Part shown: positions 37,576 to 42,091 of the stretch, one piece after another
How the letters are laid out: every line of letters starts with the position of its first letter
Position numbering within the stretch: the first letter of the stretch is position 1
Assembly (NCBI GenBank): GCA_002781365.1
Contig: PETN01000080.1
Span: 1-42,300, forward strand
DNA length: 42,300 nt
From: Sulfurimonas sp. CG01_land_8_20_14_3_00_36_23
GTDB taxonomy: Bacteria; Campylobacterota; Campylobacteria; Campylobacterales; Sulfurimonadaceae
Direction of reading: 5' to 3'
Program-made: the position numbers and the translations under genes
The notes under the pieces: model-generated
What the model was told of the DNA's origin: nothing
Database searches by the model: none
What the model saw: only the letters and a program-made list of their open reading frames with translations

Positions 37576-38724
37576 TTGAAAATCATTCACTTCAGCGACA
37601 CACACCTTGGCTACAACGACCTTGACGTTCTAAACGAAGAGAACATTAACCAAAGAGAAGCAGACTTTTACGATGCTTTTTCCCAAGTCGTAGAGCAAAT
37701 CAAGCAAATCAAACCTGACTTCGTCTTACACACAGGCGACCTTTTTCACCGTTCAAGCCCGAGTAATCGAGCCATCACTTTTGCACTTGAACAGTTTAAA
37801 ATCATCAATGCTCTCAACATCCCGTTTATCCTCATTGCAGGAAACCACTCCACACCAAGAACAAACCTAAGCTCACCCATTTTAAAGATTTTTGAGAACT
37901 TTGAGAATATCTATGTTTCATATAACCAAGAGTACAAAAAGGTGGAGTTTGCAGATGCAATCTTCCACACTCTGCCCCACATGAACGACGAGACAACTGC
38001 TCTTTCACAAATTGAGCTTTGCGAAGCAAATATTGACAAGAGCAAAAAGAACATTATGATGATGCACTGCTCCGTCGGAGCCTCCTACTTAATGCAGGAG
38101 TTTGGCGAGTGGGTATTTCCACATGCCAAAGAGTATCTTTTCAACGAAATGGATTATGTCGCACTCGGACATTGGCACGGTTTTGGGCATGTGGGAAAAC
38201 ATGAAAACGTTTACTACAGCGGTTCAACCGAACGCACAAGTTTAAATGACAAACGTAACTCCAAAGGGTTTGTAGAGATTAACTTAGACGATGCAACTAA
38301 CTCTAAAACTGCCTCACTTTTCCACATGCCAAGAAGTATAGAATTCAAAGAGATAAAGATTCGCCCGATTGTCCAAAAAGAGCTTGATTGTGAAGATTAT
38401 GAAAATGCGCTCATAGATGCCAGTGACACAGAAGATGCAATCGTCGAAGTGAAGCTCATAAACCTCACACCGCTGCAATCTATCGACATCCAAAACACTG
38501 ACATCAAAAAACTCTTTCCACATGCCATGAGTGTGAGCATAAAAAGAGAGTTCAAGCTTGGTACAAACGACACAGAGCTTAGCGACATTGAAGCTCTCTC
38601 TTTGGAAGAGTTTTTCTTAGAGCACATCAAAGAAGATGCAAACGAAAAAGAGTACGACAGACTAAAAGGCAAAGTGCAGGAACTATTTGCCAAGTATGAG
38701 GAGGCTCGTGATGATTCTCTCTAA
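37576..38724 (+). CDS. sbcD: DNA exonuclease subunit SbcD (Mre11 family)
   Basis: Nuclease half of the SbcCD/Mre11-Rad50 complex that opens DNA hairpins and blocked ends. Start is TTG 37576 behind AAGGGGAT. In 382 residues the Mre11 phosphoesterase motifs run D8-H10 (FSDTHLG), D55 (GDLFH), N90-H91 (GNHS), the MMHC region, and ALGHWHGFG. The C-terminal capping domain is less conserved. Its end overlaps sbcC by 14 bases. It is exceptional for motif density: three strong copies at 38117, 38320 and 38516 and a weaker one at 38184. Confidence 0.94.
   Translation: MKIIHFSDTHLGYNDLDVLNEENINQREADFYDAFSQVVEQIKQIKPDFVLHTGDLFHRSSPSNRAITFALEQFKIINALNIPFILIAGNHSTPRTNLSSPILKIFENFENIYVSYNQEYKKVEFADAIFHTLPHMNDETTALSQIELCEANIDKSKKNIMMMHCSVGASYLMQEFGEWVFPHAKEYLFNEMDYVALGHWHGFGHVGKHENVYYSGSTERTSLNDKRNSKGFVEINLDDATNSKTASLFHMPRSIEFKEIKIRPIVQKELDCEDYENALIDASDTEDAIVEVKLINLTPLQSIDIQNTDIKKLFPHAMSVSIKREFKLGTNDTELSDIEALSLEEFFLEHIKEDANEKEYDRLKGKVQELFAKYEEARDDSL
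38117..38129 (+). repeat. TTCCACATGCCAA motif copy, exact
   Basis: In sbcD, read as PHA (FPHAK). Confidence 0.9.
38320..38332 (+). repeat. TTCCACATGCCAA motif copy, exact
   Basis: In sbcD, read in a different frame from its neighbours, TTC-CAC-ATG-CCA (FHMP). Confidence 0.9.
38516..38528 (+). repeat. TTCCACATGCCAA motif copy, one mismatch
   Basis: TTCCACATGCCAT in sbcD, read as PHA (FPHAM). Confidence 0.75.
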
Positions 38725-41080
38725 ACTCCACCTAGAAAACTTTAAAAAATACACTTCGTACGACATCGAATTTGGCGAGGGTTTGGTGGGCATCATCGGC
38801 AAAAACGGAAGCGGAAAATCGACCCTTTTTGAAGCGATACTTTTCGCACTTTACGGAGAACTCAAAAACAGAGGCACAAAAGATGTCATTCGCAATGCAA
38901 ATGCCTCCGAAAAAGATGCCGTAGTTGTAGAACTCGAGTTTGAGTTTGAAGACGCAGAGTACAAAATACAAAGAGAGTTCCGCGGAAAAGCTCTAACAGC
39001 CAATGCAAAGCTCTACAAAAACGGCGATTTAACGACCACAGGAGCCAAAGAGGTTACCACCGCCATAGTCAACCTCACAAAGATGAGCCGCGATGCTTTT
39101 ATGCACACCCTCTTCGCTTCACAAAAAGAGCTGACAAGTCTAAGCACCCTCAAAAATGAAGACCGTAAAAAAATGATACGCAAGCTTTTAGGTTTGGAGA
39201 AAATCGACTTCATAGAAAACTCTTTAGTTGAGAAAAGTCGTGAGCTAAAACGAGAAATAAACGCTTTTGATGAAGTGCTACTAAGCGCAGAAGATGTAAA
39301 AGAAAAACAGGAGCAGATACAAACCAACAAAACTACAAAAGAGGCATTTGCCAAAGATGTGGAGCTAAAGGCAAAAGAGCTTGACGCCATCAAACTCCAT
39401 GAGCAGAAGCTAAAAAAAGAGTTGGAAATATTTGCCAAAACAAAAGAGGAAAAACAGAAACGTTTCTCAGAACTTGAACTCATAAAAAACAGCAAAAGTC
39501 TGGAGCTTCTAAACGAAGCAAAACTTATTGCACAAAACCATGAACTAGAGCATAAACAGCAAAAACTCCAAGAGCTTTCACATTTTAAGATAGAATATAT
39601 TTCCCTGCAAGAACAACTTAAAGAGCAAGAAAAACTCAAAGAGTACTACCTCAAAAAAGAGGGACTTACCAAAGAACTCGTGCAACTAAGAGAGCAGTAC
39701 AGCAAAAGTAAAACCGACATTCAAGCCTTAGAATTGGCATGTGGAAACTACGACGAGTTACTCTTTACGCTCAAAAATTTGGAGTTAACTCTCGCAGGAC
39801 TCGATGAAAACATAAAGAACAAACACACCATAGAAAACGAGCTCAAAGCCGAAATAGCAGGCGAACAGAAGCAGATAGATATCACAAACGAAAAAATCAC
39901 GAAACTCAGAGAGCTCGGAAGCGATTCAGCCTGCCCTACCTGCACAAGACCGCTTTTAGAAGAGTATGACAATGTCATCCACTCGCTTGTTTCAGTCGTA
40001 AATAACGCGCATCAGAAAAAAATAGACGAGTACAAAAAACAGCTCCAAAATGTAGTGACTCAAAAAGCTGCGTTTGAAGCACAAATGAAACCAAAAGAGA
40101 AAGAGTTTTTGGAGCTTACAAACACGCTAAAAGTGATAGAAAGTAAACTGGGCGACCTCAAAATTGCACAAGAGCATTTCAAACAAGTTGAGCAAAAAGG
40201 GCTTAAAAACAAAGAAGAACTCAAAGCACTTGAGACGTTCTCATACGATGAGAAACTGCATAAAGAGATCATAACAAAATTCACACTTATAGAAGCGCAA
40301 TACAAGCACGTAGTGAGCTTGGAAACAGAGCTTAAACGTGCACCACTCGTTAAAGCAGAACTCACAGCCATTATAAAAAAGATAGAAGAACTCACCGTGG
40401 CTGAACAGGCAAAAGAAGCAGAGTTTAACCTCGTCATCTACGAAGATGTAAAGCACAAACATACACTTGAAGAGCATGAAGCAACGCTCAAAACCATAGA
40501 GACTAAAGCGACCATATTAAATGAGATAAAAGTACAAATCGCAAGTATAGAGGGCGAAATAAAAACTATCCAAAACGCTCTTGACAACAACGAAACACAC
40601 AAGAAAAAAGTACAGAGTAAAAAAGATGATTTGGTGGATTATGAAAAAATAAAAACAAGCCTAGCAGAGTTTAAAACCAAACTCAACGCAAAAGTCGCAC
40701 CACGCATCTCCGCCATCGCCTCGGAGATGTACGCGCAAATAACCAAGGGAAAATACCAACACATAGAAGTAAGCAACGACTTCGACTTTTTCATCTACGA
40801 CGAGGGCAAAAAATACCCCATAGAACGCTACTCAGGCGGAGAAATAGACCTAGCAAACTTAGTTCTACGCATCGCCATAAGCAAAACTCTAACGGAACTA
40901 AGCGGAGCAAGTTCCATTGGTTTCTTGGCATTTGATGAAGTTTTTGGAAGTCAAGACGAGGCAAGAAGGATGGAGATACTAGAAGCCTTCCACACCATCA
41001 AAGAGCAATACCGACAGATATTTCTAATAAGCCACGAGATGGAGATTAAGGAGATGTTTGAGCGGGTTGTGGAGTTGTGA
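38711..41080 (+). CDS. sbcC: DNA repair ATPase SbcC (Rad50 family)
   Basis: ATPase and tether half of SbcCD. ATG 38711 has AGGAGG six bases upstream, better than an in-frame TTG at 38687. Of 789 residues, the Walker A is GKNGSGKST (30-38), two long E/K-rich coiled-coil arms follow, and the zinc hook CPTC with C408 and C411 sits between them. The ABC signature YSGGEIDLANLVLRIA and the Walker B FLAFDEVFGSQD (D742, E743) lie at the C-terminus. An exact motif copy on the opposite strand lies at 39734. The protein is shorter than E. coli SbcC (about 1050) but all key parts are present. Confidence 0.95.
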   Translation: MILSKLHLENFKKYTSYDIEFGEGLVGIIGKNGSGKSTLFEAILFALYGELKNRGTKDVIRNANASEKDAVVVELEFEFEDAEYKIQREFRGKALTANAKLYKNGDLTTTGAKEVTTAIVNLTKMSRDAFMHTLFASQKELTSLSTLKNEDRKKMIRKLLGLEKIDFIENSLVEKSRELKREINAFDEVLLSAEDVKEKQEQIQTNKTTKEAFAKDVELKAKELDAIKLHEQKLKKELEIFAKTKEEKQKRFSELELIKNSKSLELLNEAKLIAQNHELEHKQQKLQELSHFKIEYISLQEQLKEQEKLKEYYLKKEGLTKELVQLREQYSKSKTDIQALELACGNYDELLFTLKNLELTLAGLDENIKNKHTIENELKAEIAGEQKQIDITNEKITKLRELGSDSACPTCTRPLLEEYDNVIHSLVSVVNNAHQKKIDEYKKQLQNVVTQKAAFEAQMKPKEKEFLELTNTLKVIESKLGDLKIAQEHFKQVEQKGLKNKEELKALETFSYDEKLHKEIITKFTLIEAQYKHVVSLETELKRAPLVKAELTAIIKKIEELTVAEQAKEAEFNLVIYEDVKHKHTLEEHEATLKTIETKATILNEIKVQIASIEGEIKTIQNALDNNETHKKKVQSKKDDLVDYEKIKTSLAEFKTKLNAKVAPRISAIASEMYAQITKGKYQHIEVSNDFDFFIYDEGKKYPIERYSGGEIDLANLVLRIAISKTLTELSGASSIGFLAFDEVFGSQDEARRMEILEAFHTIKEQYRQIFLISHEMEIKEMFERVVEL
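39734..39746 (-). repeat. TTCCACATGCCAA motif copy, exact
   Basis: TTGGCATGTGGAA on the plus strand in sbcC, read as LACG (ELACGN). Confidence 0.9.
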
Positions 41081-41167
41081 TGAAATTTAAAATTATTTCA
41101 AAATGTCATATTTTTAGCCAAAACATTTTTTTAACGCCATAATATATAAAAGCACTTAGGATTGGCT

Positions 41168-42091
41168 ATGCATAAAATATCAGTGATAAACGAAGAAAAT
41201 ATCAAAGACAAAATTTTTACCATTCGTGGTATGCAAGTGATGCTTGACAGAGATTTGGCAGAGCTTTATGAAGTGGAAACAAAAGTTTTAAATCAAGCAG
41301 TAAAAAGAAATGAGAACAGATTTCCTGATGATTTTAGATTTCAGCTAAGTGAAGCTGAGTATCAAAACTTGAGGTCACAAATTGTGACCTCAAGCGAACA
41401 AAATTCTTTAAGGTCACAATCTGTGACCTTAGAAAGCAACAGAGGCAAGCACACAAAATATTTACCTTATGCTTTCACAGAACAAGGTGTCTCAATGCTG
41501 AGTGCAGTTTTAAAAAGCGATATTGCCGTGGAGATAAGTGTAAAAATCATCAGAAGCTTTGTAAACATGCGAAAACTCATCTCAAACAACGCTCTTGTAT
41601 TTCAAAGACTCGAAACTTTAGAACAAAAACAATTCACAAACGACGAAAAATTCAACAAACTTTTTGAAGCCATAGAAGCAAAATCTCTCAAACCTACACA
41701 AGGCATCTTTTACGATGGAGAGATTTACGATGCCTATCTCTTCGTCTCAAACCTTATCAAAAGTGCAAAAGAGAGCATCGTGCTTGTGGATAATTACATT
41801 GATGAGAGTGTTTTGACCATGCTTTGCAAAAGAGAACAAAATGTAAGTGCCACCCTCTACACCAAAAACATCACCGCACAACTAGAACTCGACATCAAAA
41901 AACACAACGCCCAGTACCCAAAAATCACTCTCAAAAAGTTCGACGCCTCCCACGACAGATTTCTCATCCTAGATGGCAAAGAACTCTACCACATAGGAGC
42001 AAGTCTAAAAGATTTAGGCAAAAAATGGTTCGCTTTTTCTAAGTTTGAAATGGAGAGTTTTGATATTTTGAAGAGGTTGGAGGGGAAATGA
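41168..42091 (+). CDS. ORF6N-domain DNA-binding protein with PLD-like C-terminus
   Basis: ATG 41168 follows AGGA; a TTG six bases earlier is less likely. In 307 residues the N-terminal ORF6N/KilA-N-type domain reads IFTIRGMQVMLDRDLAELY, NRFPDDFRF and LPYAFTEQGVSMLSAVL. A short coiled coil follows (about 130-170), then a C-terminal half-HKD (phospholipase D-like) domain with HDRFLILD and HIGASLKDLGKKWFAF. Proteins of this type are common on prophages and genomic islands; their role is mostly unknown, and some are called RhuM-like. Inside the ORF6N domain is a 39-base tandem repeat, residues 68-93, encoding LRSQIVTS and LRSQSVTL, each carrying a long DNA palindrome. It overlaps the next short ORF (ATGA), next to an IS end. 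Confidence 0.8.
   Translation: MHKISVINEENIKDKIFTIRGMQVMLDRDLAELYEVETKVLNQAVKRNENRFPDDFRFQLSEAEYQNLRSQIVTSSEQNSLRSQSVTLESNRGKHTKYLPYAFTEQGVSMLSAVLKSDIAVEISVKIIRSFVNMRKLISNNALVFQRLETLEQKQFTNDEKFNKLFEAIEAKSLKPTQGIFYDGEIYDAYLFVSNLIKSAKESIVLVDNYIDESVLTMLCKREQNVSATLYTKNITAQLELDIKKHNAQYPKITLKKFDASHDRFLILDGKELYHIGASLKDLGKKWFAFSKFEMESFDILKRLEGK
41368..41394. repeat. 27-base palindrome inside the ORF6N gene
   Basis: CTTGAGGTCACAA and TTGTGACCTCAAG are perfect 13-base complements around a single A. It encodes LRSQIVTS in frame. Forty bases on, a second palindrome shares the GGTCACA/TGTGACC core. Confidence 0.85.
41409..41431. repeat. 23-base palindrome inside the ORF6N gene
   Basis: TAAGGTCACA and TGTGACCTTA are perfect ten-base complements around ATC. 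It encodes LRSQSVTL and is the second unit of a 39-base tandem repeat. Confidence 0.85.

Follow-up and report, generated by a model that had tools for sequence, protein, structure and literature searches.

Two palindromes inside the coding region of an ORF6N gene of Sulfurimonas sp. CG01_land_8_20_14_3_00_36_23 are very probably operators of the protein that the gene itself encodes, where binding of a dimer would likely exert negative feedback by stalling RNA polymerase. The window referred to throughout is the whole analysed stretch of 42,300 nucleotides (contig PETN01000080.1, positions 1 to 42,300). The palindromic DNA is kept in two reading frames across the family, and the bases of its half-sites track residues of one helix of the encoded protein. 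On these sequence comparisons we strongly infer that the ORF6N protein binds its own gene.

The ORF6N gene of the window and its two palindromes

The ORF6N gene spans positions 41162..42091 and, like all features given here, lies on the + strand. It is listed with a TTG start at 41162, an alternative ATG being found at 41168, and was assigned from the open reading frame list, Pfam, a structure model and Foldseek. The protein scored 118.2 bits against Pfam PF10543 (ORF6N), for which the cut-off is 27.8, and therefore belongs to the family. Its closest relatives among the matches listed came from Helicobacteraceae and Sulfurimonas MAGs.

Candidate operator 1 (41368..41394) is a perfect palindrome, CTTGAGGTCACAA-A-TTGTGACCTCAAG, with 13-bp arms and 1 nt between them. 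Candidate operator 2 (41409..41431), TAAGGTCACA-ATC-TGTGACCTTA, has 10-bp arms with 3 nt between them, and its centre lies 39 bases downstream of that of operator 1. Both carry the half-site CACA at d5-d2, where low numbers lie near the centre, and fall into the class designated by Gln45/Arg49 of the protein. They are in frame with the gene, about 210 bases past its start codon, and encode about residues 69-78 and 83-90. The arm lengths, the spacing, the shared GGTCACA/TGTGACC core and the in-frame position were all as described in the sequence-only reading. A search for further GGTCACA-n-TGTGACC copies in the 2.43-Mb host genome returned the exact site at only these two places, both in this ORF6N gene, while near-matches with up to 3 mismatches numbered 17 against 24 for a reversed control.

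By Pfam, the structure model and Foldseek taken together, the product comprises an N-terminal ORF6N DNA-binding domain followed by a C-terminal PLD-like domain. In the AlphaFold2 model (mean pLDDT 71, pTM 0.46) residues 40-49, TKVLNQAVKR, form one helix, numbering from the TTG-encoded residue as 1. This is the predicted recognition helix (codons 41279..41308), so designated from the model and from covariation with palindrome bases; its putative specificity residues are Lys41, Val42, Gln45 and Arg49, the columns that covary with the palindrome. Residues 75-98 (41384..41455) were predicted to be disordered, with pLDDT below 50. In the model, operator 1 straddles the end of a helix at 64-77 and the start of the disordered stretch, and operator 2 falls wholly within the latter. 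The PLD-like domain, about residues 180-307 (41699..42082), was delimited from model secondary structure and from Foldseek matches to NucT, Zucchini, PLD, MITD1 and TrmB, and the C-terminal half of the modelled protein resembles PLD-type folds. With the whole model as query Foldseek mainly retrieved the C-terminal PLD-like fold; the top TrmBL2 matches had TM <0.4 and rmsd of at least 17, and no fold is claimed for the ORF6N domain. A phmmer search of the PDB with the window protein gave 0 matches at E up to 1, and an NCBIfam search gave nothing above threshold.

Upstream are found an SbcD/Mre11-like metallophosphoesterase gene (37576..38724; PF00149), which we take to be SbcD from its position, and an SbcC/Rad50-like ATPase gene (38687..41080; SMC_N and AAA_23, with SbcC_Walker_B at 24.3 bits, under the cut-off of 27). 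The ORF6N gene directly follows this sbcD-sbcC pair (37576-41080), with 81 bases between the end of the SbcC/Rad50-like gene and the TTG start. SbcCD is a nuclease acting on hairpins and palindromes. The surroundings of ORF6N genes were otherwise varied: among 80 scanned neighbour proteins, out of 297 neighbouring open frames listed, matches were obtained to N6_Mtase (10), Methylase_S (6), PDDEXK_1 (6), SbcC_Walker_B (5), NeuB (3) and RadC (3). Identity of the window protein as the controller (C) protein of a type II restriction-modification system was considered and dropped, since Pfam returned ORF6N plus a sub-threshold pRha match only and the gene follows sbcCD.

Conservation of the palindrome across the ORF6N family

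The set of relatives comprised the best 80 of 545 from a search of genome contigs, best-scoring ORF6N genes of the window's phylum (37/298 genomes with a match), of other groups (16 genomes) and of the phyla to which three of these 16 belong (74/247, 42/398 and 41/198 genomes), and 80 further stretches picked by hand from match lists. Genome searches gave at most 30 best matches each; one genome may enter the comparison by two routes, and only identical sequences were removed. Relatives found with the window query included 2 from viral contigs, 8 from phage records and 71 from plasmid records. The linker was defined as the DNA that separates the domain's two conserved halves, cut by two profile HMMs that had been built blind to palindromes. 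Both halves were found in 275/312 loci (285 pairs), and the 37 other loci, which held truncated genes and distant phage types and stand outside the comparison, were inspected by eye. The removal of linkers of >300 or <40 bases and of identical linkers left 252.

A palindrome scoring at least 6 was observed at the same place in the coding region in 246 of the 252 distinct linkers, with 84.9% scoring at least 8 and 57.1% at least 10. The corresponding figures were 8.2%, 1.5% and 0.28% for synonymous-codon shuffles (100 per gene), and 3.3%, 0.2% and 0.2% for 491 flanking windows of the same genes. In a separate comparison of 78 genes, in which arm length was counted outwards from a 3-nt loop, an unbroken arm of >10 bp was present in 22/78 real genes and in 0/3900 synonymous-codon shuffles. 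Of the six low scorers, L087, L224, L217 and L286 have a visible core, L291 has a poor one and L272 is frame-shifted. No homologue with the same peptide and without DNA symmetry was encountered among the 252, L087 and L224 retaining a TCACA...TGTGA core. The homologue comparison called for by the sequence-only reading thus gave 1 to 5 palindrome copies per gene and symmetry that is kept at silent sites. Its idea of a repeat that grows and shrinks holds insofar as copy number varies between genes; growth and shrinkage appear only as a by-product.

The palindrome centre falls on two codon positions, in frame A (typically LRSQ-x-VT-S) in 201 genes and in frame B (typically LVTNCDR) in 39, the remaining 6 palindrome genes being frame-shifted or in the third frame. 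At least 22 changes of palindrome frame were counted on a tree. The third base of the frame A Ser codon pairs with the base eight downstream in 174/179 cases, 2 of the 5 exceptions being G.T, and pairing in frame A is strictest beside the centre (96-99% at d2-d4). Among 77 close-relative pairs, which are not independent of one another, 54 two-sided differences with pairing kept in both were counted, along with 19 one-sided changes and 23 two-sided changes that involve an unpaired state. Because the palindrome persists in either reading frame and extends to silent codon positions, it is the DNA rather than the peptide that is conserved. The earlier supposition that the peptide is a family feature was half right: it does recur, as LRSQxVTS in one frame or LVTNCDR in the other, yet it looks like a consequence of the DNA site.

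Several loci depart from the common arrangement. Symmetry is weaker in the phage ORF6N branch L316-L348; in this branch and in L293, arms such as ATTTGCGCGT and ACGCGCAAAT were seen 11 bases apart at the same place, and half-site spacing may differ there. In a Rha-like phage group 15/23 genes scored at least 6 and the rest 3-5, clear sites including GTCCGAATTTCGGAC with the helix motif TARKRF and GACGAATTTCGTC with TAGRNF. In L261 the gene is broken inside the palindrome by a hairpin-rich stretch (linker of 173 bases, by eye), an insert that looks like a small mobile element. In truncated or internally deleted copies (L003, L146, L249, L252, L255, L256, L258-L260, L262 and L263) homology was judged by eye to end within about 20 codons past the palindrome. 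A break hotspot or swapping of halves at the palindrome was considered and rejected, as only 4 of 91 pairs with one half >85% alike had the other <68%, one of the four involving a gene with a stop. In the Chlorobi genes L042, L046, L048 and L051 a decayed frame-B-like LATNWER or FATNWER is followed by an intact frame A site, as if a new operator had replaced an old one.

Covariation of half-site bases with the predicted recognition helix

Mutual information between protein columns and palindrome bases singled out one helix, that of residues 40-49. Trees and code tables were built from 239 genes after dropping those with a stop, an incomplete half or a palindrome score <6 and those identical to another; the code tables used the best-scoring palindrome per gene, and the exclusion of 3 genes with uncoded residues left 236. 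Residue 49 accounted for 0.32 of 0.40 bits at d3, residues 45 and 42 for 1.18 and 1.04 of 1.45 bits at d4 and for 0.55 and 0.41 of 0.85 bits at d5. Residue 41 accounted for 0.49 of 0.82 bits at d7 and 0.32 of 1.2 bits at d8, and the signal was weaker and more scattered from d9. Because columns outside the helix also reach up to 0.22 bits at d3, part of the d3 signal is ancestry. Judging from their spacing, residues 42, 45 and 49 would lie on one face of the modelled helix.

The association can be written as a code, in which the half-site base is A for Gln45, G for Glu45 and C for Arg45 or Lys45, C for Arg49 and A for Asn49, and G for Lys41. In frame A, Gln45 occurs with A-T in 91/95 genes, Glu45 with G-C in 66/69, Arg45 with C-G in 20/22 and Lys45 with C-G in 9/9, while Arg49 occurs with C-G in 179/179 and Asn49 with A-T in 14/17. 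The same rule for residue 45 holds in frame B (Gln with A-T 24/24, Glu with G-C 12/12, one Arg without a pair). Lys41 was found with G-C at d7 in 157/159 genes, and Arg41 with A-T or mixed pairs. The code extends to silent positions: the Ser codon of frame A is TCA with Gln45 in 92/92 genes and TCG with Glu45 in 65/67, and the right-hand Cys codon of frame B is TGT with Gln in 23/24 and TGC with Glu in 11/12, the two others being TTT and TTC. Both half-sites fitted at d3 and d4 together in 224/236 genes, and the d4 pair alone fitted in both half-sites in 225/236, whereas 2000 residue shuffles averaged 93 and never exceeded 117. Classical side-chain/base contacts include Gln-adenine, Asn-adenine, Arg/Lys-guanine and Glu-cytosine.

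Relatedness was controlled for on a tree built without the contact columns, on which at least 81 changes of residue 45 were counted. Independent pairs with support were few throughout (3 to 12); they agreed for Gln/Glu with A/G in 6/6 (median p 0.03) and for Arg or Lys with C in about 7/7 (p 0.016). For residue 49 about 3/3 agreed, which is too few for a test, and Asn at this residue is partly a clade mark. The two sides of the palindrome covaried in about 9/9 independent pairs at d4 and about 8/8 at d10; at d7 the support was weaker, with about 7/12 pairs changing together and 0.7 against (median p 0.07).

The rule was then applied to held-out genes, 50 from a further phylum (52/174 genomes with a match) and 3 from plasmids, two rows without the helix motif having been dropped. 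A palindrome was present in 52/53, and the base at d4 was predicted correctly in 47/52, against a mean of 16.7 and a maximum of 29 in 5000 shuffles. The misses were two Leu45 genes, two genes with RLNQQVTRN and a GGTTGCA site, and one Lys gene with TCACA. Since Arg49 and C at d3 are common to all 52, the set is uninformative on residue 49. The autoregulation proposed in the sequence-only reading, by way of operator-like palindromes, finds strong support well beyond this one gene: half-site bases covary with the gene's own predicted recognition helix in both frames and at silent sites, and the residue-base rule also predicts the key base in genes held out.

In 14 genomes, hand-picked for the several ORF6N genes available from each, a site of the gene's own d4 class was found in 44/45 genes with a coded residue and a palindrome (4 being uncoded and 1 without a palindrome) and more than one class in 14/14 genomes. 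Combinations at residues 45 and 49 in these genomes include Gln/Asn with CAAA, Glu/Asn with CGAA and Arg/Asn with GCAA. The genome of the window holds three readable ORF6N genes, with Gln, Arg and Lys at residue 45 and the sites TCACA twice, TTCCA/TGGCA and TTCCA/TGGAA, as well as a fourth, broken one. In 29 genes with at least two counted palindromes, 18 of the 67 palindromes misfit the gene's own residue 45, some being low-scoring chance stems (score 5-6). Misfitting copies were compared with paralogues for four genes; those of L158 and L259 match a paralogue in their own genome, a hint of cross-regulation, and for L253 and L276 none of the paralogues compared fits. Extra palindromes that misfit the gene's own residue 45 were also seen in L045, L127 and L063.

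Proposed autoregulation, alternative explanations and wider reach

In the proposed mechanism each subunit of an ORF6N-domain dimer would dock its TKVLNQAVKR helix on a half-site of its own. Residue 49, at the C-terminal end of the helix, would contact d3 close to the centre, while d4-d5 would be read by residues 45 and 42, and d7-d8 by residue 41. The DNA would stay self-complementary while its sequence tracks the protein because both half-sites must fit the same helix. Protein bound about 210 bases past the start would stall RNA polymerase, giving negative feedback that does not depend on the promoter. We infer physical binding, the dimer and repression by a roadblock alike. A site that occurs only in its own gene, about 210 bases in, with an upstream copy being rare, fits autorepression by polymerase stalling.

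Matches to a gene's own half-site in the upstream flank, allowing up to 3 mismatches, numbered 10 against 3.2 expected; they amount to 7 sites in 6 loci, several having been counted on both strands or in two genes. Three of the sites belong to loci that carry several ORF6N genes (L028 and L065) and the four others are in L020, L021, L036 and L075. An operator in the promoter was accordingly rejected as a general feature, though a few genes may have a copy upstream. In the window a weak promoter-like match at 41115-41143 agrees at 9/12 positions, 9 such sites being found in the stretch compared with 4.5 expected.

Self-complementarity could also be selected in the mRNA, where a hairpin would slow translation, attract an RNase or regulate expression, as the sequence-only reading allowed. 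In favour are the covariation of paired positions, the room for a 3-nt loop and the persistence of pairing within extra copies whose sequences differ. Where a silent substitution could create a G.U pair, however, such pairs hardly ever occur (TCG opposite T in 2/106, TTG opposite T in 1/33), and internal mismatches show no G.U bias, with 69 A.C versus 45 G.T, a ratio on which codon constraints also act. Nor does an mRNA hairpin give a reason for residues 41, 45 and 49 to track single bases; three Rfam matches at E up to 1 all fell below the gathering score (best 27.4 versus 62), and we consider this explanation very unlikely. Just as unlikely is a DNA hairpin or cruciform, or quasipalindrome correction by template switching, with no sequence-specific recognition. 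Strict Watson-Crick covariation, the AT-rich centre and the symmetry of each of the differing copies within one gene would be in keeping with such processes, but they leave both the residue-base code and the d4 success in held-out genes unexplained, and pairing is strictest by the centre, where foldback copying would anneal least. Selection on pairing itself, suggested by extra copies that differ at d4 and are each symmetric, was overturned by the residue-base table.

The covariation might in principle arise within the protein, if the palindrome-encoded peptide touched the helix and DNA symmetry were secondary, and in frame A d4 does switch Val/Ala in that peptide. The same code nevertheless applies to silent Ser and Cys codons and to frame B, in which d4 switches Thr/Ala at a different position, and most of the palindrome-encoded stretch is predicted to be disordered, which leaves this an exceedingly slim prospect. 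Rickettsia palindromic elements are in-frame palindromes in coding sequence that occur as dispersed repeats, whereas the ORF6N site sits in a single gene, at a fixed place and in one or a few copies. The in-frame insertion of a mobile or repeated element of this kind would agree with the copy number of 1-5 and with the hairpin-rich insertion in L261; the search of the window's own genome, however, located the exact core only in this gene, and the site keeps its position within the gene while varying in sequence with the protein, so that we give such an insertion practically no weight. Self-binding could, finally, serve mainly to silence ORF6N genes of the same class on incoming phages or plasmids and thus constitute a system of immunity groups. 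The frequent change of half-site class (the changes of residue 45 on the tree), the coexistence of paralogues of different class and the presence of sites in phage genes too speak for this, but autoregulation alone accounts for the data, and we regard it as unlikely.

Autoregulation by an operator within the gene has parallels. Intragenic operators are found in purB (bound by PurR), as lac O2 in lacZ and as gal OI in galE, and a roadblock has been proposed for purB; in these the regulator is encoded elsewhere, whereas in ORF6N genes regulator and candidate operator share codons. For C.Kpn2I, an elongation roadblock at a site in the regulator's own reading frame is established, and negative feedback there needs no promoter operator (PMC6237814). 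The likeness lies in a palindromic site inside the regulator's own coding region and, as predicted here for the ORF6N protein, in binding and feedback, and by analogy repression would most likely proceed by blocking RNA polymerase. Unlike ORF6N proteins, C.Kpn2I is a controller of a type II restriction-modification system related to XRE proteins, and the motif of its relatives is found at or just upstream of the start of the reading frame (PMC6237814), in contrast to about 210 bases in for ORF6N. The ORF6N site further differs in being found across phyla with a readable residue-base code. The authors of that report noted that a regulator of this type works independently of the promoter, lends itself to horizontal transfer and could be common among C.Kpn2I-like proteins (PMC6237814). 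Promoter-independent feedback would be useful for a gene found in many operon contexts such as ORF6N.

Intragenic palindromes in excess were also observed in KilA-N, Bro-N and pRha genes, the residue-base analysis covering ORF6N alone. In a cruder whole-gene scan, where the gene was taken as the longest open frame over the locus middle and may at times be another gene, stems scoring at least 9 were present in 17/30 Bro-N genes (3.3% of synonymous shuffles), in 13/30 pRha genes (shuffles 5.0%), or 11/30 over a slightly shorter stretch (4.4%), and in 18/27 KilA-N genes (shuffles 4.9%), several of which share one palindrome; 27 of 30 KilA-N loci were counted, identical or short genes having been left out. 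The same scan gave 21/30 for an ORF6N set and 8 of 174 neighbour genes (4.6%, shuffles 2.5%), the top one of which, L059, has a KilA-N-like motif by eye. Strong palindromes were seen in the Bro-N (L419-L448), pRha (L449-L478) and KilA-N (L479-L508) loci, for example TTCACTGAGCGCAATTTTGCGCTCAGTGAA in L458 and TTTTAAACCCCTCGAATTCGAGGGGTTTAAAA in L484.

To our knowledge the DNA bound by other proteins of the Bro network is poorly known. The same is said of the DNA targets of KilA-N outside fungi in a 2016 article (PMC4862756). In the open-access literature searched, including parts of PMC6591296, PMC10111431, PMC4862756 and PMC6237814, no account of intragenic operators in ORF6N, KilA-N, Bro-N or pRha was found. 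As far as searched, the family-wide occurrence and the readable code are thus new, and the kind of mechanism has one well-studied precedent. Whether self-encoded operators are a general, overlooked trait of the phage-derived regulators of the Bro network (ORF6N, KilA-N, Bro-N and pRha), with half-site classes as orthogonal specificity groups, we hold to be evenly balanced. If they are, each gene of the network would be a portable, self-limiting and promoter-independent module whose site can be read from the gene alone, and half-site classes would possibly decide which resident copies silence which incoming ones.

Genes of the ORF6N family, which is widespread in bacteria and phages, seem to curb their own expression wherever they land. 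If each carries its own operator, its target could be read directly from the gene and its specificity would be predictable, and it would be clear in concrete terms how such genes could function once moved into many different operons. One stretch of DNA would then be at once coding sequence, operator and coevolving partner of the protein it encodes.
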